From: a virus
Length of the DNA stretch: 30,847 nucleotides
Strand: one strand, 5' to 3'
IMG/VR virus record: IMGVR_UViG_3300030389_004692
Coordinates: 1 to 30,847 of that record
Positions 8,137 through 23,717 of this stretch are shown here, piece after piece. Numbering within the stretch: the stretch's first letter is position 1; each line of letters starts with the position of its first letter. Position numbers and translations under genes: made by a program. The notes below the pieces were generated by a model. It was not told the DNA's origin and did not search any database. It worked only from the letters and a program-made list of their open reading frames with translations.

Positions 8137-9249
8137 TCATAATTTAATAATTTTATCATTAATTGTCAAGTCTTTTATAAAATCAGTTTTGCTTAGATTT
8201 GGTCCTACAGTCATTCTTAACCAATTTTTTCTATTATCAAATGGTATTTTTGCACCGGCTTTATAAGTTACATCAGAATACTCATCAAGAATTTTACATA
8301 ATTGTTCATTATCATCTTTACTATTTATGTGAATCCAATTACAATAACCACCTATTACATCATAACCGGCTTTTTTAAAATACTCAATTAAACGACATTT
8401 TTCAAAATTAGTATCTCTTATATAATCTTCCACTATTTTATAATTGTCTAATATATGACAGGCAAACTTAGCAGCTGGTCCTGTTATCTCGTGCATCATT
8501 CTAAATTTCATCAATTTTTCAATCATAAATTTATTTGATATGACATAACCCACTCTTACACCTGCTGCTCCTTTAGCTTTACTGAATGTCCTACTCGTCA
8601 TAACATTGTCATATAATAAACCTGTTTCTATACAGGTGTCTTCTTGTCTTTCTACAAACTCTGCATATGCCTCATCAATCAAAACAGGTATACCCATTTC
8701 TTGTGTCTTCTCGAATATTTCTTTCATTTCATGACTTGACTTAAAATCGCCTATAGGATTATTAGGATTAGCTATAATGATTAAAGATGTATTTTCATTG
8801 ATTCTATCCAACATTACATCAATAGGCCAATATAGTCCTTCTTCTTGTGGCCAATCTGAATCATGTTCATATGAGACTTGTCTGAACCTAGCTTGATATA
8901 ATTTCGAGTAAACTTCATACATTGGAAAACAAGGAAATGTAGATAAAACCTCCGAACCTGGAGTAACAAATACGTCAAACATTGTCCTTATTCCTATATC
9001 GCTGCCCGGTGTAATAAATACGTTTTTGTCATTTACTTTATAATGTTCACTAAGTCTTGTCTTTAACTGATTGACATATGGATAAGTAATGAAATCAGTT
9101 TGTTTGATTGAATCAATCCAATCATCCCAAAACTTTTTAGGAAATTCTGTTATTCTCTCACTTTGGTCAAGTCTCCATTTATACTGAGACTTATCTTTAT
9201 CAACCTCGTATCTGACTATATCGTCAAGATACTTTTTGTATTTTATCAC
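8137..9249 (-). CDS. PLP aminotransferase, class I/II (HisC-like), 370 aa
   Basis: All landmarks of a fold-type I aminotransferase are present: NPNNP (161-165), the cofactor aspartate in IDEAYAEF (Asp192), the PLP lysine in SRTFSKAKG (Lys224) and GVRVGY with Arg232. The layout is that of histidinol-phosphate aminotransferase. No other histidine gene is nearby, so a role in the surrounding glycan pathway is likely. In Campylobacter capsule clusters HisC-like enzymes make small amino-alcohol phosphates; a similar job is possible here but unproven. The start is GTG (9247-9249), overlapping the upstream stop by one base (TAGTG), with AGGAG ten bases upstream. Confidence 0.85.
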   Translation of the reverse strand: MIKYKKYLDDIVRYEVDKDKSQYKWRLDQSERITEFPKKFWDDWIDSIKQTDFITYPYVNQLKTRLSEHYKVNDKNVFITPGSDIGIRTMFDVFVTPGSEVLSTFPCFPMYEVYSKLYQARFRQVSYEHDSDWPQEEGLYWPIDVMLDRINENTSLIIIANPNNPIGDFKSSHEMKEIFEKTQEMGIPVLIDEAYAEFVERQEDTCIETGLLYDNVMTSRTFSKAKGAAGVRVGYVISNKFMIEKLMKFRMMHEITGPAAKFACHILDNYKIVEDYIRDTNFEKCRLIEYFKKAGYDVIGGYCNWIHINSKDDNEQLCKILDEYSDVTYKAGAKIPFDNRKNWLRMTVGPNLSKTDFIKDLTINDKIIKL

Positions 9250-10187
9250 TAATTGTTTACTCCTAAATGTGATAGTATTGGTGTAAGTTCTTTATAAGAA
9301 CAATTCAAACAATGTTCTGTTGGGTTCTTTGTTTTACAACCATTCTTGATAGCCTGATAACCAGGACTACGGTGTATTTCATCGATGTGTTGAGTGAATA
9401 AATTACCTAATGGTGTGGCACCTGTGTTCATACAACATACTTTTACGTTGCCTTCTACGGTGACGTAAAGACCTTTGTCTACCCAAAAACAATCATCAAA
9501 GTCCCATACAGACTTACCCATAATTTTGTCTTGGTAATTATCAATTAAATATTTCAATTGTTCTTCTGAATATCCTGATGTTGCGATATCATCTGCCATT
9601 GATGTATTTTCATCCCATATTTGTGCTATGTTTAATCTGATACCATCAAGTTTATACTCATTAACGAAGCCCTCTACTTTAGGTATGTCATCAACGTTAT
9701 AGGCATTGACTACATAATTTATAGGTACTTCACAGCCATGTCTTTCAATTGTTCTGAAATCTTCTAAAAATTTCATTAATACTTTCCATCTTGCTGGGGC
9801 TCTATCTCTTTCATAATGTTCACCCCAACCATCAATACTCAAATATAACATGTCAATGTATTTTAAAGCCTCTTGAAATTTCTTTCTAAATCTACCACCC
9901 TCTGTAATTTTATATTGACAATTTGTAGCTACAATGACTTTAGCATTAGGAAATGTTTGTTTGAACATTCTACAAATTTCATCAAACTGAGGATGTAACA
10001 TCGGTTCACCCATACCCATTAATTTAGTTTCGGTAATGGGATGATGACTTATACCATCTAATAACTTTTGCCAGTTATCCAAAGACATGTGTTTTAACGG
10101 ACCTATGACATCCATTCTATTGCAAAAACTACAATCTAAATTACAATAATTTGTTGTTTCTAAATAGGCATAAGTTATATTATTCAT
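9249..10187 (-). CDS. Radical SAM protein with SPASM-type C-terminus, 312 aa
   Basis: The iron-sulfur motif CNLDCSFC (Cys15, Cys19, Cys22 from the ATG) near the N-terminus binds the 4Fe-4S cluster that cleaves SAM. A GMGEP-type motif follows (MGMGEPMLHP), normal for radical SAM proteins. The C-terminal part has further cysteines (VKVCCMNTG, NGCKTKNPTEHCLNC) as in SPASM domains that hold auxiliary clusters. The frame can be opened at a TTG 12 bases earlier; the ATG at 10185-10187 is preferred. Substrate unknown: relatives act on peptides, sugars or aminoglycoside-like compounds. The gene lies between a sulfotransferase and a HisC-like aminotransferase. Confidence 0.85.
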   Translation of the reverse strand: MNNITYAYLETTNYCNLDCSFCNRMDVIGPLKHMSLDNWQKLLDGISHHPITETKLMGMGEPMLHPQFDEICRMFKQTFPNAKVIVATNCQYKITEGGRFRKKFQEALKYIDMLYLSIDGWGEHYERDRAPARWKVLMKFLEDFRTIERHGCEVPINYVVNAYNVDDIPKVEGFVNEYKLDGIRLNIAQIWDENTSMADDIATSGYSEEQLKYLIDNYQDKIMGKSVWDFDDCFWVDKGLYVTVEGNVKVCCMNTGATPLGNLFTQHIDEIHRSPGYQAIKNGCKTKNPTEHCLNCSYKELTPILSHLGVNN

Positions 10188-10890
10188 AATTGTACCCAAA
10201 TATTAATATGTCATTCTTAAAATTACTTTCTATAATATCAACGCTATTACTATTATACATATCGTGATAGCTATTAATATCAAAAAATCGACCATTGTGA
10301 GTTCTGACACCACTTCTCATTATTGGAATCTCAGGTAACTGAGACGCTATTCCTAGCTTTTTTGATAATGCACCAAAGCCCTCTTTTAAGAGAGAAAATT
10401 CTATGACAAAATCAACTCCTATTTTACCATCATCATCTTTGATATGATAATAACATTCATCTATATCTCTCAAACCATCATGTTGTCTGCTAAAAACCTC
10501 TCCTTTATGTGAATATCTGTTATCAATTCTCATTTCATGCTCAGGCGTACATTTATCAACAAAGGCCATTTGAACCCAATCGTTAAACTCTGCATCTACA
10601 TATGCATTTGAGTTCGGATTACAGACATTTTTACGATAATAACTAACCATTCTATCCCACGGATTTCTAGAAATACTGAATGTGTAATAATCTTCAATAT
10701 CAATAACTAATGATAACTCTTTTAAAGTCCAATGTTGGGAATGTGGATATGTTATATCTTGATGTGTGAATCCATTATCAAGTGGATATTTAATCCCATA
10801 TCGCTCAAGAGCTTTATTTACACTATTTCCGCCAGTCTTTGTAGCATGAACAAATACAAATTTAATTTCACTGCCTGTATTTGAAATCAT
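10180..10890 (-). CDS. PAPS-dependent sulfotransferase, 236 aa
   Basis: The segment FVFVHATKTGGNSV (11-24) fits the 5'-phosphosulfate loop of carbohydrate sulfotransferases, and FSISRNPWDRMVSYY (71-85) fits the 3'-phosphate site with its Arg and Ser. The general layout is Sulfotransfer_2-like, as in heparan sulfate 2-O-sulfotransferases. The enzyme would move sulfate from PAPS to a hydroxyl of a sugar. No PAPS-making genes are in the window, so the donor must come from the host. Overlaps the preceding glycosyltransferase-like gene by 4 bases and the next by 8. Confidence 0.8.
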   Translation of the reverse strand: MISNTGSEIKFVFVHATKTGGNSVNKALERYGIKYPLDNGFTHQDITYPHSQHWTLKELSLVIDIEDYYTFSISRNPWDRMVSYYRKNVCNPNSNAYVDAEFNDWVQMAFVDKCTPEHEMRIDNRYSHKGEVFSRQHDGLRDIDECYYHIKDDDGKIGVDFVIEFSLLKEGFGALSKKLGIASQLPEIPIMRSGVRTHNGRFFDINSYHDMYNSNSVDIIESNFKNDILIFGYNYE

Positions 10891-11810
10891 TGAACTATCT
10901 TTGTTTTAAAGTTCACATTATCTACATCTAAATTTTGATTATTATTAGGATCGTACTTAAATCTATTTATTACATTTGGATTCTGACGAACATACTTATC
11001 TTCAAACCTCTCAAAGTTATTCAAATCAAACTCATCATCTATCATTTGAGGATTTTTATATAATGCCCTAACTGCCTCAGTATCGGTTTCTCCAAAAAAA
11101 CAAAAATCTAAATTTTCATATAAATTTTCTCTTTTGAATTGTTCAACTACCTCTGAATGTGGACTGTTTATCTTAGTGCCTGTAGAAACGTAGTAATTAT
11201 ATACATTTGCATATACGTCTATGTTCTCCGGCTTTGAGAATATAAACGAATCGTAAACTCTATCATTTACTAAGCTATGATTTCTTCTTTTTTCTATTGT
11301 ATTTAACTCAACCACAACAGTTGTATCTATACCATTATTTAAGTTATCTTGTTGTCTGACTCCATCAATTCTACCAATAGGATTACCATGTCTCATCCAA
11401 ATATAATCCATATCAAAATCGGAAAAGTTTAGTGGCACTAAAAAAACATGATCATATCTAAAAAACATAACTGCATCATACTTAATACTCATTTCTTTTT
11501 CATAGCTTTTTCTAAGATTATTACAAATAGCAGTTGAATACCACCTAGATGCAATACAATTGTCTCGTATGGTTTCTTGATTAAAATCTATCTGTTTTTC
11601 AAACAAATACTTCTTAGGTTTATATGTATCCACCAATCCCATTTCGTGTTTTACAGACCAACTATGAAGAAACACATCAACCTCATCATTGATATCAAAT
11701 ATATTTTTTTTATTCCAATAATGAGCTATTCTATAATCTATATCTTTACCTAAACCCATTCCAAAATTTGATGAACCAACTATACCTACTAAACAATAAG
11801 CAACTCTCAT
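10887..11810 (-). CDS. Probable glycosyltransferase-like protein, 307 aa
   Basis: Not firmly recognised. The N-terminus (MRVAYCLVGIVGSSNFGMG) reads like the first strand of a nucleotide-sugar-binding fold, followed by DINDEVDVFLHSWS, a pattern seen in capsule and LPS proteins that act on surface sugars. A middle segment (KYDAVMFFRYDHVFLVPL, about 112-129) has an RxD in the place where GT-A enzymes keep a DxD. The last 60 residues are rich in Asn and Asp and may be flexible. Position between a GDPD-like protein and a sulfotransferase supports a part in glycan building. An unrelated function cannot be excluded. Confidence 0.5.
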   Translation of the reverse strand: MRVAYCLVGIVGSSNFGMGLGKDIDYRIAHYWNKKNIFDINDEVDVFLHSWSVKHEMGLVDTYKPKKYLFEKQIDFNQETIRDNCIASRWYSTAICNNLRKSYEKEMSIKYDAVMFFRYDHVFLVPLNFSDFDMDYIWMRHGNPIGRIDGVRQQDNLNNGIDTTVVVELNTIEKRRNHSLVNDRVYDSFIFSKPENIDVYANVYNYYVSTGTKINSPHSEVVEQFKRENLYENLDFCFFGETDTEAVRALYKNPQMIDDEFDLNNFERFEDKYVRQNPNVINRFKYDPNNNQNLDVDNVNFKTKIVQ

Positions 11811-12229
11811 AAAATTTCTACTCCTATAAAATCACTACAAATTCCAGCTATCTCATCTTCAATTACTATCTCTGGTAAAACAGCAATAGATTTAGGCGTG
11901 AGTTGTTTGTTTGGATATGTCCATAAATATCCTTTTGAAGTTATTGTAACATCATCTTCTTGATGCCAAAAACAATGTATTTTATTATTCTGTAACATTT
12001 TATAAAGAGCATTTATGTTTTTTGCATGACACCAAAATTTAGGATTATCCAAGTAATTATCATCTACGACATATTGTGGATTATCATGACCTAACCAATA
12101 TTGATTATCGACTAGCCAAACATCTATCTCCACATCAAAGTTTTCAGATAAAGCTTCTGCTATATGTTTAGGATGATTTTCAAAACGGGACTTTCCGTCT
12201 AAATTACCTCTATGAGATATCAATATCAA
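11807..12229 (-). CDS. Short GDPD-like (glycerophosphodiesterase-fold) protein, 140 aa
   Basis: The first residues MILISHRGN carry the HRG of the GDPD family (His6, Arg7), and FDVEIDVW supplies the ExD pair (Glu34, Asp36) that holds the metal. A LGHD turn follows at about 47, as in many GDPD proteins. At 140 aa it is roughly half of a full TIM barrel (about 240 aa), and the second catalytic histidine region is not obvious. It may act on a phosphodiester in the glycan pathway or have lost activity. Start and stop overlap both neighbours by 4 bases. Family assignment moderate. Confidence 0.6.
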   Translation of the reverse strand: MILISHRGNLDGKSRFENHPKHIAEALSENFDVEIDVWLVDNQYWLGHDNPQYVVDDNYLDNPKFWCHAKNINALYKMLQNNKIHCFWHQEDDVTITSKGYLWTYPNKQLTPKSIAVLPEIVIEDEIAGICSDFIGVEIL

Positions 12230-13308
12230 TTTCCCAAGTCCTTTAAAAATCTTTCTAAATCACCTGAGTTTCTAACGAGGTTTACAGCATCGCATGTCGG
12301 ATATGGATTTGATGTGCCATAATCATTTATTATAGTTCTATTAGCGTGAAATAAATCAAAGATGATATTATCATATTTGATACCTTCTCTTTCTAATTGT
12401 TTAATAGTGACATCTTTGGCATCTGATGTTCTAGCAGTAGTTAAAATAATATAAACTTTACCTGTATCGTGTAGTTTATTTAAAAAATCAATATTTTCTT
12501 TTATTCCTTGAGTTTCTCCCCAATAAGGTGGTGTATATTTACCAGAGCTTTTAACTAAAGTACCATCAATATCTACAAATAATGTTTTAAATTGTCTAAC
12601 ATATTTAAACCAATCTTCCTTAGTTCCCCAATCTACATAATCCGAAGCTTCTACTGCTTTAAATACAAAACCATCCGATATCATTTTCTTTATTATATAA
12701 GAAATGTAAAGATTGTCGTCACCAGATAATTGTTCAAAGTAATTACAATAATCATTGACATCATTGAATGAATAGCAACCACAACCAAATGTAGAAGAGA
12801 ATACATGCTTTTCTACTATTTCATTAATATTTTTATCATCATCAAATTTAACATAAGATTTATTTGATGGATTAATTGAAGTAGTATTATTTAAATCAAA
12901 GTAAGTCATGAAGTTATTAGTAGTATCTTTAAAATACTGACTGGCAACATCAAACTTAAAATAATTATCCACTTCTTTTATCAATATAGAACCTGTTACA
13001 TTTGCCTTTTTGATGACCTCATAAACTGTATGAGGTTGGTTTTTGGTTTTTTCTGAAAGCAATACAATTTCCGACTTATCTTCTATGCCCAATTCTTTAA
13101 AACATAATTTTATGCCATCTAAACAATCATACTTTTCTATATGCTCTTTTAAAAATCCAAAATATACTTTATCTATAACACTGAAATCTACTGAACTCAA
13201 TGCTTCAACAATCATCCACCTACCTTTAGGGTGTGTTAACATCCACTTTGGCTTTAAACCTTCAAATCTACTAGATAAACCAGCAGCTGTAACTATAATA
13301 TTTTTCAT
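12226..13308 (-). CDS. Sugar nucleotidyltransferase fused to HAD phosphatase, 360 aa
   Basis: Residues 1-235 form a nucleotidyltransferase: IIVTAAGLSSRF is the nucleotide-binding loop and LKPKWML the following lysine motif seen in NTP_transferase proteins. Residues 242-360 form a HAD domain with DIDGT (246-250), TTARTSD as motif II and the IINDYG segment near the acidic motif. One protein could thus both activate a phosphorylated compound and remove a phosphate from it or its precursor. The ATG at 13306-13308 is preferred over one 12 bases earlier, since that earlier ATG lies within the GGAG site. The start is two bases after the preceding stop codon. Fold calls are firm; substrate unknown. 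Confidence 0.8.
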   Translation of the reverse strand: MKNIIVTAAGLSSRFEGLKPKWMLTHPKGRWMIVEALSSVDFSVIDKVYFGFLKEHIEKYDCLDGIKLCFKELGIEDKSEIVLLSEKTKNQPHTVYEVIKKANVTGSILIKEVDNYFKFDVASQYFKDTTNNFMTYFDLNNTTSINPSNKSYVKFDDDKNINEIVEKHVFSSTFGCGCYSFNDVNDYCNYFEQLSGDDNLYISYIIKKMISDGFVFKAVEASDYVDWGTKEDWFKYVRQFKTLFVDIDGTLVKSSGKYTPPYWGETQGIKENIDFLNKLHDTGKVYIILTTARTSDAKDVTIKQLEREGIKYDNIIFDLFHANRTIINDYGTSNPYPTCDAVNLVRNSGDLERFLKDLGN

Positions 13309-13309
13309 T

Positions 13310-13837
13310 TTATTCTCCATTAAAAACTACTCCATATAATTGTAATAATTCAACACCATACTCCATGCAAGTGTCGTAGACTCTATTTTTCAAATTGACA
13401 AACAAATCGACATCATTCCCAATATCAGTATACAAGTCCTCACTGTCCAACATAATGTGAAATATTTTACCTGTTTTGAACAACTCTCCTAAGTTTTGAA
13501 CTCCTCTTAGTGTTTCTATCTTAGGAACAAAACTTACATGCTCTGGTAGCATATCACATATTAGATTTACCTCAGCAACTTCTTCTATGTTTGATGTGGC
13601 AAAATATTTTATATTTTTATACTTTTGTGTAAATGTTATAGCATCTGTTAGGGATAAAGATGGGACAGGCGGTTTAGTTCTTCCCTTCGGATAGTCCAAA
13701 AAAACATCGTAGTCTCTGTTTACGAATGTCTTTAGTTCCTTCAAATCCTTTACATGTGCCATATTGATTCTTACCACAACATCTTGTACATTCTGAAATT
13801 GAGGTAAGTTTAGCAAGTGATTAGATATCAGTATCAT
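13310..13837 (-). CDS. Pyruvate-kinase/HpcH-aldolase-like TIM-barrel fragment, 175 aa
   Basis: The order of motifs follows the TIM barrel of the pyruvate kinase/phosphoenolpyruvate superfamily: VVVRINMAHV (Arg23, like the RxNxSH of pyruvate kinase), FLDYPKGRTK near 46, and FVPKIETLRGVQNLGEL with Lys106 and Glu108 like the catalytic KIE. The usual RGDLG after it appears as DSEDL (131-135). The nucleotide-binding parts and the C-terminal domain of pyruvate kinase are absent, so this is not a glycolytic enzyme. It may act on a 2-oxo acid or enolpyruvate. Overlaps the tiny membrane gene upstream (ATGA). Confidence in the superfamily is moderate. Confidence 0.6.
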   Translation of the reverse strand: MILISNHLLNLPQFQNVQDVVVRINMAHVKDLKELKTFVNRDYDVFLDYPKGRTKPPVPSLSLTDAITFTQKYKNIKYFATSNIEEVAEVNLICDMLPEHVSFVPKIETLRGVQNLGELFKTGKIFHIMLDSEDLYTDIGNDVDLFVNLKNRVYDTCMEYGVELLQLYGVVFNGE

Positions 13838-13974
13838 ATTATTCTCTCCAAATATTTAGTTAAAAGTGATAAGACTACAGCAACAATTACATCAGCAATA
13901 GGCGGAACAAATGGGAATCCGAAATTCCAAACAACGACTAAAAGTAACCAAATAGAAAATATTTTATAATTCAT
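13834..13974 (-). CDS. Small hydrophobic peptide with one or two membrane helices, 46 aa
   Basis: A complete frame with ATG (13972-13974) and TGA (13834-13836) fills what would otherwise be a 126-base gap. It overlaps the preceding nucleotidylyltransferase gene by 11 bases and the next start by 4 (ATGA), the same style as the neighbours. The product begins MNYKIFSIWLLLVVVWNF, then has a PFVPP turn and a second hydrophobic stretch VIVAVVLSLL before a polar end. It looks like a hairpin membrane peptide. No family known. It could be a membrane anchor for the soluble enzymes encoded on both sides; that is a guess. Confidence 0.6.
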   Translation of the reverse strand: MNYKIFSIWLLLVVVWNFGFPFVPPIADVIVAVVLSLLTKYLERII

Positions 13975-14302
13975 TTCTTATCTTTGTTGCTGATATCTCT
14001 CTTATTTTTTCAGGTGGCACTAACTCATTTAAATCATAACCAACATCTCTACCATAGTTAACCGACTCTACAGCTGGTATCACTATTACTTTAATTTCAC
14101 CTACGTCTACTTCATTAATAAACCTTTGAATGATTGAATTACGAACCGAATCGGTTGGAAATGGATTGTTGTCAGGCTCTTCATTGTGAATATCCATAAT
14201 GGCAATACAAACTTTTTTACCCCTATCCAACATTTGCCTAACACACCATTCGTGACCATCGTGAAAAGGTTGAAATCTTCCTATATATAATGAATATCTC
14301 AT
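13964..14302 (-). CDS. Small nucleotidylyltransferase (HxGH/ISSTxIR type), 112 aa
   Basis: GRFQPFHDGHEW (8-19) contains the HxGH signature and the C-terminus ISATKIRNEL is the ISSTxxR-like motif of nucleotidylyltransferases such as NMN adenylyltransferase, phosphopantetheine adenylyltransferase and glycerol-phosphate cytidylyltransferase. The length (112 aa) is near the lower limit; a DNNPFP segment lies where the fold has its variable loop. In a glycan cluster a cytidylyltransferase producing a CDP-activated group is the more likely role, but an NMN-type role in NAD supply is also known in phages. First gene after the 51-base gap at 14303-14353. Confidence 0.75.
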   Translation of the reverse strand: MRYSLYIGRFQPFHDGHEWCVRQMLDRGKKVCIAIMDIHNEEPDNNPFPTDSVRNSIIQRFINEVDVGEIKVIVIPAVESVNYGRDVGYDLNELVPPEKIREISATKIRNEL

Positions 14303-14353: not shown

Positions 14354-15427
14354 TTAAACATTTTCCCAATATGTATCAGTATCTTTTTTGTCTAGTAACT
14401 CATTTTGCCAAAACAATGTTATGATTTCTTCGTTATTATTTGGTGTAATATTATGTGTGTAAAAAAGTGGCATATCAATATACTGAGTTTTATCACCAGA
14501 AACTTTATATTTTATAACAACATTAGAACCTAATTTTCGTAAACTGATTAAAGCCTCACCTTTCAATACACAAAACCTCTCTAATTTTCTCATATGGAAA
14601 TGCTGACCTCTTACATAACCAGGTTTTGTAGTTGAAAAAAAAGATTGACCACCATTATTTGTTTTAATTGTCTCAGACAAATAACCTCTATCATCTATGT
14701 GACTGTCCATAGTGATTAGTTTATTTTCCATGTAAGACCGAAATGTATTGAATAAATTTAAATCAAAATCGGTTTCCAATACTGGTATGACATTATTATT
14801 AATATATTCATCTTTAAATCCTAACAATTTTGAGTAAACATAATTTACCGAGCAAACTTCATCATGCTTTATCTCATAATTTTCTTCATCACCTTTTTTT
14901 CTTATTATATCAACTATCTGTTTACATAAGTTTTGAACATATATTAATCGAACTTCGTTACTATTAGCATTCACCACTTCATCATTTATTATCTTATGAC
15001 AAAAAGTAGCTACAAAAGAATTATAATTTGGTTTACAAAAGGGACCAAAAACGTTTGGTATTTTCATTGATTGAAATTTTGAATTATTTCGTTTAGCCCA
15101 ATCTAAAAATAATATCTTGTTCTCTCTTCTATAAACACCAAATAAACTTTCATCATCCTCATGTAACGATGAAGCATATAGCAATCTCTTACCCTCAAAT
15201 CCCTCTAATGATTTGATTAGATTTAAAGCAGACTTTTTATTATTCAAATAAACCTGTTGTTCATCACCTCTATTTTTTTCTGCTAAATGTACTATTACAT
15301 CACATTTGTCAATTTCATTCAAATCCCTATTCAACTTAATAACCTTCAGATCGTCACATAAATACTTTATATGTAACCATAAGTGATATCCTATAAAACC
15401 ATTTGAACCTGTTATTCCTATCTTCAA
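14354..15427 (-). CDS. capF: CapF-like bifunctional reductase/epimerase (SDR + cupin), 357 aa
   Basis: CapF (WbjC, FnlB) takes the product of CapE; its cupin domain epimerises C3 and its SDR domain reduces C4, giving a UDP-6-deoxy-L-amino sugar. The N-terminal SDR shows TGSNGFIG (6-13). The C-terminal cupin is well kept, with RGQHFHMRKLERF (His276, His278, Glu283 as metal ligands), THN with His325, and the family ending LFWQNE...DTYWENV. The SDR active-site stretch reads ESLFGVYRREN, so the expected YxxxK appears as F96...R100, not the catalytic pair. Start is TTG (15425-15427), overlapping the upstream stop by 4 bases (TTGA); no ATG is available before the Rossmann motif. Confidence 0.88.
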   Translation of the reverse strand: MKIGITGSNGFIGYHLWLHIKYLCDDLKVIKLNRDLNEIDKCDVIVHLAEKNRGDEQQVYLNNKKSALNLIKSLEGFEGKRLLYASSLHEDDESLFGVYRRENKILFLDWAKRNNSKFQSMKIPNVFGPFCKPNYNSFVATFCHKIINDEVVNANSNEVRLIYVQNLCKQIVDIIRKKGDEENYEIKHDEVCSVNYVYSKLLGFKDEYINNNVIPVLETDFDLNLFNTFRSYMENKLITMDSHIDDRGYLSETIKTNNGGQSFFSTTKPGYVRGQHFHMRKLERFCVLKGEALISLRKLGSNVVIKYKVSGDKTQYIDMPLFYTHNITPNNNEEIITLFWQNELLDKKDTDTYWENV

Positions 15428-16383
15428 TTTAGAACCCCTTTATCTAATAAAAAAGGATAAGCTTCCTCACTCTTCATTACATAAAACTCTGAGTTTAATG
15501 GTTTATGATTATAGTTCTCATTGTTTCTTTCATAGCCAATCATCAAATATTTTTCACCAGCTTCTTCAACTCTCTGATATTCTATAGAACTAATCATTTC
15601 TTCGTGTAACTTTTCTCCATTTCTAATTGGTATCTTATGAAATTTTATATCTTTTTTACCTAACGATGTTGCTATTGACTTTGCAAAATCTATAATCTTC
15701 ATTGATTTTAATTTTGGAACTACTATTTTACCATGTGAATGAAGATATTTATAAGACCATTCTATCAAGTCTATAGCCTCATCTAATGTGATTAAAAACC
15801 TAGTCATATCAAAGCTTGTTATAGGTAAACTCCCAGCACCCTTTTCTATTATATCTTTAAATACGGGTATAAGCGAACCAGTAGAATCTAATACATTTCC
15901 ATACCTACAAAGCGCAACTTTTATATCAGATTGCTCCTTTGCAAAGTTTACATATATTTGCTCTGCTATACCTTTACTCATACCATAAACATTAACAGGA
16001 CTACAAGCCTTGTCTGTAGATATGAACATTACAGTTTCTATTTGATGTCTACATTCTCTAATGCAATCTATTAAATATTGATGACCAACTACATTTGTTA
16101 ATATTGACTCATACGGATTGTCTTGTGCAACCCATACTGTTTTAAGTGCGGCTGTATTAACAATTACATGCGGTTTAAATTCATACATATTTCTTAATAT
16201 AGATTCTTTGTCTTTTATATCCCCAATTCGATATAAAGCATTAGGATAAGTTCTTTTCATCTCTTCTTGTTTGTGTTCATTCCTAGAAAAAATTAAAATA
16301 TCATTTTCTTTATTCCATCTTTCAGTCAATTGTTTACCTAAAGCGCCAGTGCCACCTATTATCATTATTTTTTTATTAATCAC
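15424..16383 (-). CDS. UDP-HexNAc 4,6-dehydratase/5-epimerase, CapE/FlaA1 type
   Basis: 319 aa. NAD motif GGTGALG (10-16), the TAALKTVWVAQDNPYE segment (78-92) with the lysine typical of this family, STDKACSPVN with Asp124 and Lys125, and YGMSK (133-137). This is the catalytic set of PseB/FlaA1 and CapE dehydratases that turn UDP-GlcNAc into a 4-keto-6-deoxy-L-sugar. The gene directly precedes capF with a 4-base overlap, as in L-FucNAc and pneumosamine pathways, which favours a CapE role. Start is GTG (16381-16383) with GAGG upstream and a GTGA overlap; an ATG six codons later is the alternative. Confidence 0.85.
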   Translation of the reverse strand: MINKKIMIIGGTGALGKQLTERWNKENDILIFSRNEHKQEEMKRTYPNALYRIGDIKDKESILRNMYEFKPHVIVNTAALKTVWVAQDNPYESILTNVVGHQYLIDCIRECRHQIETVMFISTDKACSPVNVYGMSKGIAEQIYVNFAKEQSDIKVALCRYGNVLDSTGSLIPVFKDIIEKGAGSLPITSFDMTRFLITLDEAIDLIEWSYKYLHSHGKIVVPKLKSMKIIDFAKSIATSLGKKDIKFHKIPIRNGEKLHEEMISSIEYQRVEEAGEKYLMIGYERNNENYNHKPLNSEFYVMKSEEAYPFLLDKGVLN

Positions 16384-17336
16384 ACCACCACCTCATTGTA
16401 ATATCTTAATACAGTAATTTCTTTTGGATTTGGAACATCTACATCATTACCCATAGCTATATCGATTATAATTTTCATAAAGTTAACATTAGCTAATGTC
16501 GCAAAATAAGTGCCACCACCAAACCTCGGATTTATTTCAACAAATTTAGGTGTACCATCTATAGACTCTTTCATTTGAATACAAACTGGACCTTTCATAT
16601 TTAAGATTTTACATAGCCTGACACAACTATTTTCAATTAATTCATTTCTAAATATACGACCTTTGGATGAGATACCAGCTTTTATTTGTAGTCTTTCTCT
16701 CGGAACTACAGACAAAACCTCGCCACTTAAATCACATAAGACATCAATGGTATATTCTGTACCTGGTAAATATTCTTGATAAATATAATCACTACTAAAG
16801 TGTAAATTTTCTGTTGACGAAAATGACCTAACATCATTTCTATGATTCCAAAGTTCTATACCTCTGCTACCACTACCTCTTCTTGGTTTACATAAAATAG
16901 GAAATTCTACATCTTGCCAATCATCAGAAGTTATAGGAAATAGGTGTTTTAAATTATTAAATTCACTCGATGCTTTATGATAAAATGTTAATTTGTCTTG
17001 ACAATTTAATATATCTTTATGATTTGACATAAAGTTTATAACATGTAATTTATCTAATAAAGCCTGATTCTTTGAGAAATGAACTATATCAGCATCACCC
17101 GTAGGGACTATCAAGTCTACCTTTTCTTCTCTAATAATTTTTAGAACCTCTTTCCAATAATTATCCTCTACTGAAAATGGAACTACATAACTACTATCGG
17201 CTAAATGAAACCCTACTGAAAGATTATCACAATCAATAGCTATTATTTTATGTTCATTTTTTTTATCAAAGTTACGAACAGATTTTATAACGCCGACAGC
17301 AGCAGGTCCACCAGCACAAGAAACTAATATTATCAT
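16380..17336 (-). CDS. ATP-grasp enzyme (carbamoyl-phosphate-synthase-like), 318 aa
   Basis: ATP-grasp proteins join a carboxylate to an amine or thiol with ATP. The N-terminus VSCAGGPAAVGVIKS is a PylC/CarB-like Rossmann part. The central domain has FPILCKPRRGSGSRGIELW (about 160-178), the lysine and glycine-rich loop that grips ATP, and the C-terminal part EINPRFGGG with the metal-binding Glu-Asn. Such enzymes in glycan clusters add amino acids or peptides to sugars, or build small amide-linked precursors. Overlaps neighbours by 4 bases on both sides. Reaction not known. Confidence 0.85.
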   Translation of the reverse strand: MIILVSCAGGPAAVGVIKSVRNFDKKNEHKIIAIDCDNLSVGFHLADSSYVVPFSVEDNYWKEVLKIIREEKVDLIVPTGDADIVHFSKNQALLDKLHVINFMSNHKDILNCQDKLTFYHKASSEFNNLKHLFPITSDDWQDVEFPILCKPRRGSGSRGIELWNHRNDVRSFSSTENLHFSSDYIYQEYLPGTEYTIDVLCDLSGEVLSVVPRERLQIKAGISSKGRIFRNELIENSCVRLCKILNMKGPVCIQMKESIDGTPKFVEINPRFGGGTYFATLANVNFMKIIIDIAMGNDVDVPNPKEITVLRYYNEVVV

Positions 17337-20116: not shown

Positions 20117-20913
20117 ATAGATTTAAAAAATCTATCAGCATAGATTTTTATTCCTCTTCTTCTTAGGTAATCTCTTAAATCTTCTGAGACATCATTAGTA
20201 TGCCCTTCGATTGTCTTATCATCTATGTTATATATAGTCTTAAAATTACTCTGATTTAAAAATATTTTTCCGTTCTTATAATTAGTTTCTATGTTACGAG
20301 TTATCCCCTTATGTTCACATAATACTTTCCAATCTGAAAGAATCTTCTTTACCATTGATTCAATTTGCGTATCTTTGAGTGTTTTCGGGTATATATTTTC
20401 CTTAATAATTTTACACGGTATACCAGCAGCTAAACACCCATCAGGTAAACTCTTATTAACTAATGAGTTAGTTCCAATCACAACATTATTACCAACAACA
20501 ACATTAGGTAACACAATACTTCTAGCTGGTAACCAAACATCATTACCTATCTTAACAGGTCCAAACTCCGATGGAAAACCCTTTGTTACATCTAACCAAG
20601 CACCGTGAGTCCAAATCATTACATCAGCTCCAATGCCACAGTTGTCTCCTATTTCTACAGGTTCAGATGGATTAATTATTGTATTCTCAAATATACCGAC
20701 TCCATTACCAATCTTTACTTTTGAATTAGGTCCTGTGTTCCCACCTCTTCCTATTTCTACCCCATCCGCCATATATAGGTGATTACCTATGATTAACTCT
20801 TTACATTTTATTTTTACATTATTACCTATTCTAGAATATTTACCTATCGTAACCTTTTCACAATCTATAAAAGTATTCTCTCCTATTATAACCGAACTAT
20901 GTATATTACGCAT
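20113..20913 (-). CDS. Left-handed beta-helix acyltransferase (hexapeptide repeat), 266 aa
   Basis: The first 180 residues are hexapeptide repeats (VIIGENTFI, VTIGKYSRIG, LIIGNHLYMADGVEIG, PVEIGDNCGIGADVMI, VVVGNNVVIGTNSLV), as in sugar O- or N-acyltransferases of the LbetaH class. HGAWLD near 125 may supply the catalytic histidine. The last 90 residues are not part of the repeat and look helical. The start at ATG 20911-20913 is preferred since AGGAG lies just upstream; an ATG 12 bases earlier is also open. It follows a DxD glycosyltransferase gene with an 8-base overlap. Confidence 0.85.
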   Translation of the reverse strand: MRNIHSSVIIGENTFIDCEKVTIGKYSRIGNNVKIKCKELIIGNHLYMADGVEIGRGGNTGPNSKVKIGNGVGIFENTIINPSEPVEIGDNCGIGADVMIWTHGAWLDVTKGFPSEFGPVKIGNDVWLPARSIVLPNVVVGNNVVIGTNSLVNKSLPDGCLAAGIPCKIIKENIYPKTLKDTQIESMVKKILSDWKVLCEHKGITRNIETNYKNGKIFLNQSNFKTIYNIDDKTIEGHTNDVSEDLRDYLRRRGIKIYADRFFKSI

Positions 20914-21673
20914 ACAACTCCTCATAAGTTCTTTTCATCCAATAATCAACATTTCTGTTTGATGGATTTGGTGGTATGGCATTAAAGTGATAAACCCAAC
21001 CCGATTTATACATATTTTTTAAAGAGTCATCCCACCAACTATAGTCTTTAATCCACAATAAATTTTTCTTAAACATATCTTGTAAATTGTAACATTCTGG
21101 TAATAAGTTTAGCTCTAAATTATTTTTCTCTCTAAGAAAGTTAATACAAGTTTGGTCTCCTGAATTGTATTTACCCAACACCCTAAGTAATTCATCTTTA
21201 TTTGAATTATACCAATCTATTATCTCAGCTAAATACTCCTTATGAGATTCATTAAATATCTGAAATCCTCCATTTATATATCTCCACAATTTAAACGTAT
21301 CGGTTTGAAAGAATTTAGGTCCCCATTGAGAAATACTTCTATGTTGCCATTCGTAACATCCATTGTTCAAAACAGCAGAATACTTATCATTTGTTTCATC
21401 AAAAAAGTTAGGACAATTAGGGTGGACAATAGTATCGGCATCGACCAATAAGACTTGACTGTATTTGATATTATTAGATTCTAATAAATCAAACACATAA
21501 TATCTTTGCCATACAATTGGCATGTGTTCAACAGGAAGCAACAAATCCTCTAATACAAATAGCTCACAATTGTGTTTATTAGACCAATTTTTCCAACTCT
21601 CTACCGATAAATGATATGGAGAACTTCTATCATTACCTAAATCAATATTAGGGATAAATACTATATTTTTCAT
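20906..21673 (-). CDS. DxD glycosyltransferase, GT8-like, 255 aa
   Basis: The metal-binding motif VLLVDADTIVHPN (Asp78, Asp80) follows a strand exactly as in GT-A enzymes, and the acceptor half has YINGGFQIFNESH and SGDQTCINFL, both typical of GT8/GT34-like folds (the GDQ segment holds catalytic contacts). A late HFN near the C-terminus (WVYHFNAIPP) is like the HxxG metal ligand region of GT8. Donor unknown. Overlaps the GT2-fusion gene by 4 bases. Confidence 0.75.
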   Translation of the reverse strand: MKNIVFIPNIDLGNDRSSPYHLSVESWKNWSNKHNCELFVLEDLLLPVEHMPIVWQRYYVFDLLESNNIKYSQVLLVDADTIVHPNCPNFFDETNDKYSAVLNNGCYEWQHRSISQWGPKFFQTDTFKLWRYINGGFQIFNESHKEYLAEIIDWYNSNKDELLRVLGKYNSGDQTCINFLREKNNLELNLLPECYNLQDMFKKNLLWIKDYSWWDDSLKNMYKSGWVYHFNAIPPNPSNRNVDYWMKRTYEELYA

Positions 21674-23262
21674 AAATATTCAAATCCCCACTTTTCATAT
21701 TCAAGTTCTGAGAATGGATATCCTTTATATGATTCCATCTCATAAAATCTTTTTATACCTTTCCAATCATTTATATTTTTTTTATCATTCTTGTTTTTTC
21801 TACTAAAATAAAATCTAGGTTCTAAAAACTTATAGCCCTCAAATTCAAAGGTATAGTTCTGAATTATATCATCGTCTGATTTTGCACCATTAATCATAAA
21901 CTTTTCATAATTAGGTGAAAATATTTCAACATTACCAACTTTATGATATTCATTAGTCATATTAAGGTCACTTCGCAACTTAGAGCTTATTATAATATCT
22001 AAATCATCATTTTGACGAATTCCCATAATAGCTAAAATGCTGGATTGAGTTAGACAATACTGAGACTTATCCAATCGTTTTAGTTGTTTCATACTCCTCA
22101 AATTTGATAATGGATTAGTTGCTCTAATTAAATTATCACCGTCCCACGGTACATTGTATATTTTTTCTTCTTTCATATAAAATGGTATGTAAGATTTTCC
22201 TGATATTAACCTACCTAACATAGCACAAGCTCTGTGATAACTGTGTTTTATAAAACCATTATCAAACTCTACTGGATGTTCTTTTAAAAAAGTTTTAATC
22301 TCATTATCGCTCATCCTCTCCAAAGAATTATAATATTCTTCTGTCATATTATCCCAACCTAATTCGTGGTGGTCAGCTACATTTTTTCTGAACTCCCCTA
22401 TCATGCAATTAAAGTATTGCCAATTCTTAGGATTTAACATAAACCTATTTGTGCGAAGATTTTCAGGCACAGAGTAAAACATTAATACATCCTTAACAGT
22501 TTTTAAAGTGCCATTTTGTGTAATTATCTCTTTTCCACCACCACCTTGAGCAAACTCCATATTTAAAAAGTAATCTAATGATATTGGTTTGAACCTATCT
22601 TTTTTTTTAATTTCGTCCGAACTCCCTAAGTTCATACCCATGCTTATCTCTTCATTATAAAATTTATTTTGTTCTACCTGTCTTTCTATTGTTTTCGGGT
22701 GAACTATAGAATACTTTTGTTCCATTGGCAAATGAGCATAAGTCTGAAAGCCTGTTAGTTGTTCGTGAACTGGTTTTTCCCAACGAATATTTGGTCGATT
22801 ACGAAAGATACGACCTTGCCAATCAGGATAGTTTATCCATCCTTTTTCATTCATTGTGTATCCATACATTTTACAATGTTCCTTAGTTATCCCATCCACT
22901 GTATTTATTCTTGGTACAAAAATTAAATCAACCTCATTACCCTCAAGTATCTCATGTATGTCTTTCAAAAACCAATGAGATACCATTTCATCCGCATCTA
23001 AATTAAAACTGTAATCACCAGTGCACATACTTTTAAGGTAGTTTTTTTGACTTGCAAAATCCTTCAATAAATTTCGTTGCTCTAATATAACACCTTTAGC
23101 AGAAGAATAATAATCTAAAATAGCTTTGGTTTTTTCCTCAGTAGAATAATCATCTAATATAACAATCTCATCTTGTGGTTGTTTATACTTTACTAAAAAT
23201 TCTAATAACTTTTCAAGAGTGTTGGTTTCATTATGAACCAAGATAGAATAACTAATTTTCAT
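21670..23262 (-). CDS. GT2 glycosyltransferase fused to nucleotidyltransferase-like domain, 530 aa
   Basis: Residues 1-220 form a family 2 glycosyltransferase: SYSILVHNETNTLEK at the start, EIVILDDYSTEEKT near 32 and the DxD-like NLDADEM (87-93). Residues from 404 on look like a minimal nucleotidyltransferase: ILAIMGIRQNDDLDIIIS, with Asp420 and Asp422 as the expected metal pair, and a later FEGYKFLEPRFYFSRKNKND segment like the region following it in MNT-type enzymes. The middle, about 220-400, is unassigned. Fusion of the two activities in one chain is unusual. GT2 is firm, the second domain moderate. Confidence 0.75.
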   Translation of the reverse strand: MKISYSILVHNETNTLEKLLEFLVKYKQPQDEIVILDDYSTEEKTKAILDYYSSAKGVILEQRNLLKDFASQKNYLKSMCTGDYSFNLDADEMVSHWFLKDIHEILEGNEVDLIFVPRINTVDGITKEHCKMYGYTMNEKGWINYPDWQGRIFRNRPNIRWEKPVHEQLTGFQTYAHLPMEQKYSIVHPKTIERQVEQNKFYNEEISMGMNLGSSDEIKKKDRFKPISLDYFLNMEFAQGGGGKEIITQNGTLKTVKDVLMFYSVPENLRTNRFMLNPKNWQYFNCMIGEFRKNVADHHELGWDNMTEEYYNSLERMSDNEIKTFLKEHPVEFDNGFIKHSYHRACAMLGRLISGKSYIPFYMKEEKIYNVPWDGDNLIRATNPLSNLRSMKQLKRLDKSQYCLTQSSILAIMGIRQNDDLDIIISSKLRSDLNMTNEYHKVGNVEIFSPNYEKFMINGAKSDDDIIQNYTFEFEGYKFLEPRFYFSRKNKNDKKNINDWKGIKRFYEMESYKGYPFSELEYEKWGFEYL

Positions 23263-23717
23263 TGAATAAATTGTGTGTTTATTTGTGTAACTTTCATCGA
23301 GGTTAATTTACTAAGTTTATAGGCACGATATGCTTCTTTAAAAAATTTATCAGATGAAATAATATCACTATAAAATCTTGAGGTGGACATTGCAGACCTT
23401 TTCTTTGGGTTAGAAATCTGAATCCTAAAATAGTCATCAGTCAAATTAATTAGATTTTCAACTTCATCTAATTTAGTTTTTTTAAAGTCAATCACTTGAA
23501 ATAATTTTTTTAACTTAGTTGGGTTAAGATAATTTAAGTTCAAACCTTCAATATTTTTTGTGTTATTATTTTGATGTAAAAAAAGTAGTATGGGACGAGG
23601 ATCTACGACACCAGTTTCAGCATAGTTAAAAGTAACTATCATACCAGGTATTAGCCTACGAGATGGAACTGTTTGGACTGATTTAATTATTCGTCTGTTG
23701 TTGTATCTTCTCGCCAA
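23259..23717 (-). CDS. Conserved T4-like phage protein, unknown function, 152 aa (TTG start)
   Basis: The start is TTG (23715-23717) with GGAGAAG six to seven bases upstream, inside the end of the zinc-ribbon gene (35-base overlap). The N-terminus is basic (ARRYNNRR), followed by LIPGMIVTFNYAETG and a beta-rich stretch with HQNNNTK and EGLNLNYLNP. The pattern with xGLNLNYL is one I associate with small proteins of marine T4-like phages, possibly virion or assembly proteins, but I cannot name it. It is not an obvious glycan enzyme and may belong to the phage core. Confidence 0.6.
   Translation of the reverse strand: MARRYNNRRIIKSVQTVPSRRLIPGMIVTFNYAETGVVDPRPILLFLHQNNNTKNIEGLNLNYLNPTKLKKLFQVIDFKKTKLDEVENLINLTDDYFRIQISNPKKRSAMSTSRFYSDIISSDKFFKEAYRAYKLSKLTSMKVTQINTQFIQ

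Follow-up and report, generated by a model that had tools for sequence, protein, structure and literature searches.

The described systems closest to the genes analysed here are the synthase of 3'-phosphoadenylyl sulfate (PAPS), PAPSS1, and the bacterial CysNC and Sat-CysC proteins, in which an adenylyl sulfate (APS) kinase domain and then an HxxH-type nucleotidylyltransferase are fused or adjacent and are linked to sulfotransferases. Here we examined five genes at positions 11807–14302 of a 30,847-base virus record (IMGVR_UViG_3300030389_004692, a marine phage fragment; the whole stretch is referred to as the window), the first of which encodes a small HxGH nucleotidylyltransferase that we call HIGH. 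Relatives of HIGH are paired with an APS-kinase-like protein in the kinase-first order of animal PAPS synthases. Compared with PAPS synthase, HIGH is short (∼110 aa) and NadM/PPAT-like, has no PF01747 domain, QxRNPxH or GRDHAG motif, PUA-like N-domain or GTPase subunit, and its kinase partner usually lacks the lid segment. With the second group of relatives, archaeal-type nicotinamide mononucleotide (NMN) adenylyltransferase (NadM) and PPAT, HIGH has in common its fold and the motifs GRFQPFHxGH and ISxTxIR, but it is much shorter, falls far below the curated cut-offs, has an invariant GRxVG of its own and has an APS-kinase-like partner. From its linkage and from enzymes that are missing where it occurs, we tentatively favour a role for HIGH and its kinase partner in sulfate activation.

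The five consecutive genes exist as described in the original prediction, which had been made from the DNA letters; they lie on the minus strand and their open reading frames overlap by 4–11 bases. The prediction's family calls for the nucleotidylyltransferase, the HpcH/pyruvate-kinase-like barrel and the HAD half also agree with our family searches. The features are as follows (NT, nucleotidyltransferase; PEP, phosphoenolpyruvate).

14302–13964, minus strand: HIGH, a small HxGH adenylyltransferase-fold protein of 112 aa (PF01467, CTP_transf_like, 27.1 bits, cut-off 21)
13974–13834, minus strand: membrane peptide of 46 aa, conserved, adjoining HIGH in each of five phage contigs
13837–13310, minus strand: mini-barrel, a pyruvate-kinase-like protein (PEP/pyruvate superfamily) of 175 aa (PF03328, 22.7 bits, cut-off 25)
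13320–12226, minus strand: NT (residues 1–240) fused to a HAD phosphatase (241–364), 364 aa (HAD and NTP_transferase, weak)
12229–11807, minus strand: GDPD-like compact protein of 140 aa (PHROG 34507, E 8e-23)

To follow the five families we searched viral contigs for relatives of each gene and annotated ∼240 loci with local profile hidden Markov models; the counts below refer to dereplicated loci (37 for HIGH, 72 for GDPD, 89 for NT and 17 for the mini-barrel). NT lies within 3 kb of GDPD at 62 of the 72 GDPD loci, and GDPD is near NT at 62 of the 89 NT loci. Within 3 kb of HIGH, GDPD occurs at 2/37 loci and NT at 3/37, and HIGH accompanies GDPD at 2/72 GDPD loci, while HIGH is found near 9 of the 17 mini-barrels. 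Because of these counts we divide the set into module A (HIGH, the 46-aa peptide and the mini-barrel, 13310–14302) and module B (NT-HAD and the GDPD-like protein, 11807–13320). The families thus recur together in a non-random manner, but all five were found together in the window only. The idea that the genes form a set for activating a small group by steps outside the standard sugar pathways holds up, whereas their assignment to a single pathway does not, since co-occurrence splits the set. The 46-aa peptide, which had no Pfam match of note, adjoins HIGH in five independent phage contigs (the window, L004, L008, L009 and L011) with 54–91% identity, and the window and L004 genes differ by 1, 3 and 8 bases at codon positions 1, 2 and 3; because of this conservation and the preponderance of third-position differences we regard it as a real gene.

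HIGH belongs to the HxGH adenylyltransferase superfamily, as seen from its PF01467 match, its motifs (GRFQPFHDGH ... NYGRDVGY ... ISATKIR) and its AF2 model (pLDDT 89.4), which has the fold of PPAT and NMNAT (Z 10–12). Residues H14, G16, H17 and R109 are invariant in the alignment. PF01467 and a weak PF05636 were its only family matches. It did not reach the curated cut-off for NadM (TIGR01527, 39.4 bits against 181.2) and gave no match to the Sat profile PF01747; the fold matches listed with the model included no ATP sulfurylase. In alignments, the Sat motifs QxRNPxHxxH and GRDHAG are not present in HIGH, which has GRFQPFHDGH and GRxVG[YW] instead.

A possible role is suggested by what lies next to HIGH in other phages. 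A P-loop kinase lies directly upstream of HIGH or is fused to its N terminus, and of 45 virus records that contain HIGH, 36 have a PF01583 (APS kinase) match over its cut-off. The APS-kinase-like domain, kinase first, is adjacent (mostly at 0 bp) or fused to HIGH at 29 of the 37 loci; conversely, HIGH is present with 32 of 36 such kinases. The overlapping partner kinase at L078 passes the NCBI curated APS-kinase cut-off (TIGR00455, 151.5 bits against 138.7), while those at L018, L029, L060, L079, L088 and L243 fall below 138.7. In cultured Stenotrophomonas phages the kinase and HIGH are fused and annotated as 'kinase' or hypothetical. The HIGH loci that have no APS kinase are essentially those with a mini-barrel, the window included. 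We also observed that in a set of freshwater phage contigs (L029, L031–L038, L045, L048 and related contigs) the kinase and HIGH lie directly upstream of a DNA methyltransferase-like gene (TSPPYN), outside glycan cassettes.

At HIGH loci that have a mini-barrel, the second linkage is to a sulfotransferase, which in the window lies a short distance from the five genes:

10180–10890, minus strand: sulfotransferase of family 2, PF03567 (E 9.9e-8, 32.8 bits, Pfam cut-off 22), re-found in the genome search

PF03567 scored over cut-off in all nine of the following records: the window, L003, L004, L005, L008, L009, L010, L011 and L017. Of the 9 loci having both HIGH and the mini-barrel, 8 have a PF03567 sulfotransferase within 4 kb, compared with 5/69 GDPD and 3/84 NT control loci, which represent similar glycan cassettes (Fisher p 5e-7 for the comparison with GDPD loci). 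The 'RSGST' genes beside HIGH at L087 appeared sulfotransferase-like by eye but had no Pfam, NCBIfam or convincing PDB match, and were not counted.

We also scanned genomes with the HIGH alignment and took the best 80 hits, of which 78 were from SAR11 and 2 from Neomarinimicrobiota. At 66 of these 80 bacterial loci an APS-kinase-like gene with the same orientation lies no more than 3 kb away, and most of the pairs overlap or touch. A gene inventory was taken of 25 HIGH-bearing genomes (23 SAR11, 2 Neomarinimicrobiota), with 14 control genomes for the sulfotransferases. Sulfotransferases of PF00685 were present in 23/25 against 2/14 controls and those of PF13469 in 17/25 against 2/14, and a PF01583 kinase-like match was found in all 25. 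By comparison, Sat (PF01747) was found in 2/25, CysN over cut-off in 0/25, and there was no convincing CysD or CysH in the 25 genomes. The PF01507 matches obtained in SAR11 cover only the first ∼77 profile positions inside frames of ∼525 aa, which we take to be probably GMP synthase. The supply of PAPS in SAR11, a very abundant ocean bacterium, therefore represents a gap: PAPS-type sulfotransferases are present, and a known ATP sulfurylase is found in almost none of the genomes checked. SAR11 sulfotransferases have been noted as genes (PMC2217521), and in the library that we searched we found no paper describing such a PAPS pathway in phages or SAR11. Since a separate CoaE is present in 21 of the 25 genomes, the kinase and HIGH are unlikely to be a coenzyme A-type pair (PPAT plus dephospho-CoA kinase).

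Taken together, the kinase–HIGH pair may supply PAPS, because SAR11 has sulfotransferases but not the enzymes known to initiate PAPS synthesis, and a kinase of the right family adjoins an adenylyltransferase. HIGH would be a minimal, non-orthologous adenylyltransferase making APS from ATP and sulfate, the APS-kinase-like enzyme would phosphorylate APS to PAPS, and a sulfotransferase would then sulfate a glycan. In the window, the stretch would be made up of two neighbouring modules from a phage cassette for surface glycans, with module A belonging with the sulfotransferase at 10180–10890, which is likely the PAPS user of the locus; the APS kinase might come from the host or from a phage gene outside the sampled fragment. 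The assignment of module A to sulfate activation is the reading to which we incline, at slightly less than even confidence. For this module the suggestion that a phosphate ester is activated gives way to sulfate (PAPS) as the more likely group, given the APS-kinase-like partner and the nearby PF03567 gene. With somewhat greater reserve, we consider it possible that SAR11 and many tailed phages use an unrecognised two-part PAPS synthase, consisting of a NadM-like mini-adenylyltransferase (a non-orthologous ATP sulfurylase) and a lid-less APS kinase, which would feed sulfotransferases where the known sulfate-activating enzymes are absent, the phage copies serving to sulfate surface glycans. The pair, which is conserved in SAR11 chromosomes and in phages, is a single concrete candidate for PAPS synthesis in SAR11. 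If true, this proposal would place a third kind of ATP sulfurylase beside Sat and CysDN and would explain a phage gene pair that is widely mis-annotated ('kinase', 'NMN adenylyltransferase', 'cytidyltransferase').

Several observations weigh against sulfate activation. HIGH is nearest in sequence to NMN adenylyltransferase (NF002243, E 9e-12; PDB 2qjt, E 1.6e-11) and not to ATP sulfurylase, and we do not claim homology between its invariant GRxVG and the GRDHAG of Sat, the D being non-conserved and the profile alignment failing to superimpose the two. Most partner kinases are below the APS-kinase equivalog cut-off and have no lid segment. A PF01583 search revealed no APS-kinase gene in the 31-kb fragment that is the window, and among loci with HIGH and the mini-barrel an APS kinase was seen only at L011/L012 and L018. 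HIGH loci without a mini-barrel, mostly from one freshwater group, have a nearby sulfotransferase in only 2 of 29 cases, so the sulfotransferase link is not universal. The inventoried genomes were assembled from single cells or metagenomes and are incomplete. Finally, at the SAR11 locus L330 a second APS-kinase-like gene stands beside a PEP-mutase-like/cytidylyltransferase pair (these two recognised by eye), and therefore the kinase fold may serve non-sulfate substrates. This kinase (L330, record G054:C8, ∼20183–23617) passes the PRK05541 cut-off and has a sulfotransferase-like gene on its other side, and the locus is possibly a phosphonate/sulfate glycan cluster.

The alternative that survives best reverses the order of the two steps, as in HldE and NadR: the kinase would phosphorylate a small organic compound and HIGH would convert the product to an AMP- or other nucleoside diphosphate-linked form for a glycan or a cofactor, for example in a variant of NAD salvage. 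This scheme would accommodate the sequence proximity of HIGH to NMN adenylyltransferase and of its model to PPAT/NMNAT, as well as the freshwater pairs with few sulfotransferases nearby, and kinase-first fusions fit HldE too. We nevertheless judge it unlikely, although a serious competitor, as the kinase is APS-kinase-like, with that of L078 above a curated cut-off, and is no ribosylnicotinamide kinase, HIGH scores far below the NMNAT cut-offs, and both the linkage to sulfotransferases and the missing sulfate-activating enzyme of SAR11 would be left unexplained.

A further alternative concerns the mini-barrel, for which we found 18 viral relatives and aligned 15 sequences of ∼175 aa; with a confident AlphaFold model (pLDDT 88.9) of a seven-strand partial barrel, it is a conserved short family and not the broken TIM-barrel gene implied by the earlier label of 'fragment'. 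Foldseek placed pyruvate kinase at the top (E 2.7e-6), followed by CitE-like lyases and hydroxyketoacid aldolases. When E. coli PykF was aligned with its B domain omitted, RINMAH paired with RLNFSH, LDYPKG with LDTKGPEIR, PKIET with SKIEN and EDL with GDL, so that the catalytic K-x-E (K106-I-E108) and the metal-binding D134 align with SKIEN and GDL of PykF; these residues are invariant in the 15 sequences. The mini-barrel therefore shares the partial TIM barrel and the PKIET, EDL, RIN.AH and LDYPKG resemblances with the pyruvate kinase A domain and HpcH/HpaI aldolases, but at 175 aa it has no B (nucleotide-lid) or C domain and remains below the pyruvate kinase cut-offs (TIGR01064, 17.7 bits against 306.4; PF00224, 15.1 against 30). 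It keeps the positions with which pyruvate kinase binds PEP and metal, and its probable ligands are a metal and PEP or pyruvate. Searches with narrow peptide patterns found no relatives in the genomes of 84,980 species, nor did cultured-phage records yield any. At L022 (7554–8528) the most divergent mini-barrel (41%) directly follows a gene for a TagD-like cytidylyltransferase (CTP_transf_like) instead of HIGH.

The barrel and HIGH could form a pathway of their own, in which the barrel would make an acid derived from PEP or pyruvate and HIGH would adenylylate it, by analogy with PEP mutase and cytidylyltransferase in phosphonate clusters, the sulfotransferase linkage being incidental to glycan cassettes. 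The proximity of HIGH to over half of the barrel loci, the replacement of HIGH at L022 and the gene set at L330 all speak for such a pathway. We consider it improbable, given that HIGH mostly occurs without the barrel, including at all 80 bacterial loci, and that sulfotransferases are far fewer in the control glycan cassettes. The weakest alternative, that all five genes make, activate and transfer one small phosphorylated group, draws on their overlapping arrangement in one operon and on L003, where HIGH, the mini-barrel and NT-HAD share a cassette, but we reject it as very unlikely on the rarity of HIGH–GDPD proximity and the restriction of the complete set to the window.

Module B would represent a separate activation, in which a small phosphorylated compound is linked to a nucleotide and the HAD and GDPD-like domains remove or recycle phosphate esters. 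The N-terminal half of the NT-HAD fusion matches PDB 4evw, a nucleoside-diphosphate-sugar pyrophosphorylase (E 1.6e-8), and the protein has 54 viral relatives. The GDPD-like protein, with more than 500 viral relatives, is common in cyanomyoviruses; it had no Pfam match of note, none to GDPD (PF03009) included, but keeps the HRG, EN, E-D and HD positions (HRGN...EN...E.D...GHD). In the cyanomyoviruses S-SM2, Bellamy, SynMITS9220M01, B23 and DSL-LC03 HAD or NT genes adjoin its gene or lie a few genes away. The sets of S-SM2 (204–208) and Bellamy (gp209–213) resemble the window in grouping NT, HAD and GDPD-like genes within a single glycan cassette, but the window has NT and HAD as a fusion and carries neither a class II aldolase gene nor one for glycosyltransferase 61. 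An APH/choline-kinase-like gene lies within 3 kb of NT at 25 of the 89 NT loci, and such pairing of a kinase with a nucleotidyltransferase follows the logic of LicA-LicC. Activation of a small phosphorylated molecule, as put forward in the original prediction, is thus a reasonable proposal for module B, and that interpretation was right in spirit here and probably wrong for module A.

The modules are part of a glycan cassette at ∼1.5–23 kb of the window, in which all genes except small antisense reading frames are on the minus strand. The cassette encodes epimerases, a UDP-sugar dehydrogenase, DegT and HisC-like aminotransferases, glycosyltransferases, the sulfotransferase, a hexapeptide transferase and a PIG-L-type deacetylase. 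Two further genes adjoin the sulfotransferase, the second being the HisC-like aminotransferase that had been correctly placed a few genes from the set of five:

9249–10199, minus strand: radical SAM-SPASM protein, 93% identical in L003, where it adjoins the same sulfotransferase
8137–9249, minus strand: class I/II (HisC-like) aminotransferase (Aminotran_1_2, E 4e-35), 82% identical in L003

The order of sulfotransferase, radical SAM-SPASM and aminotransferase genes in the window (8137–10890) is the same as in L003 (8522–11254), another marine phage, with 67–93% identity, and the 93% for the radical SAM protein is unusually high for the cassette. At 14354–16383 the window has a CapE/CapF-like pair (Polysacc_synt_2; an epimerase with Polysacc_synt_C), typical of the synthesis of N-acetylfucosamine (FucNAc)-type sugars and with relatives in L003. 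A HAD gene of the window at 17333–17641 matches PHROG 1238. By analogy with this PHROG, the 'phosphoheptose isomerase' genes of the cyanophages S-SM2 and Bellamy (L105, 5693–6004, and L103, 7690–7998) apparently encode HAD phosphatases, and their present label is likely a mis-annotation.

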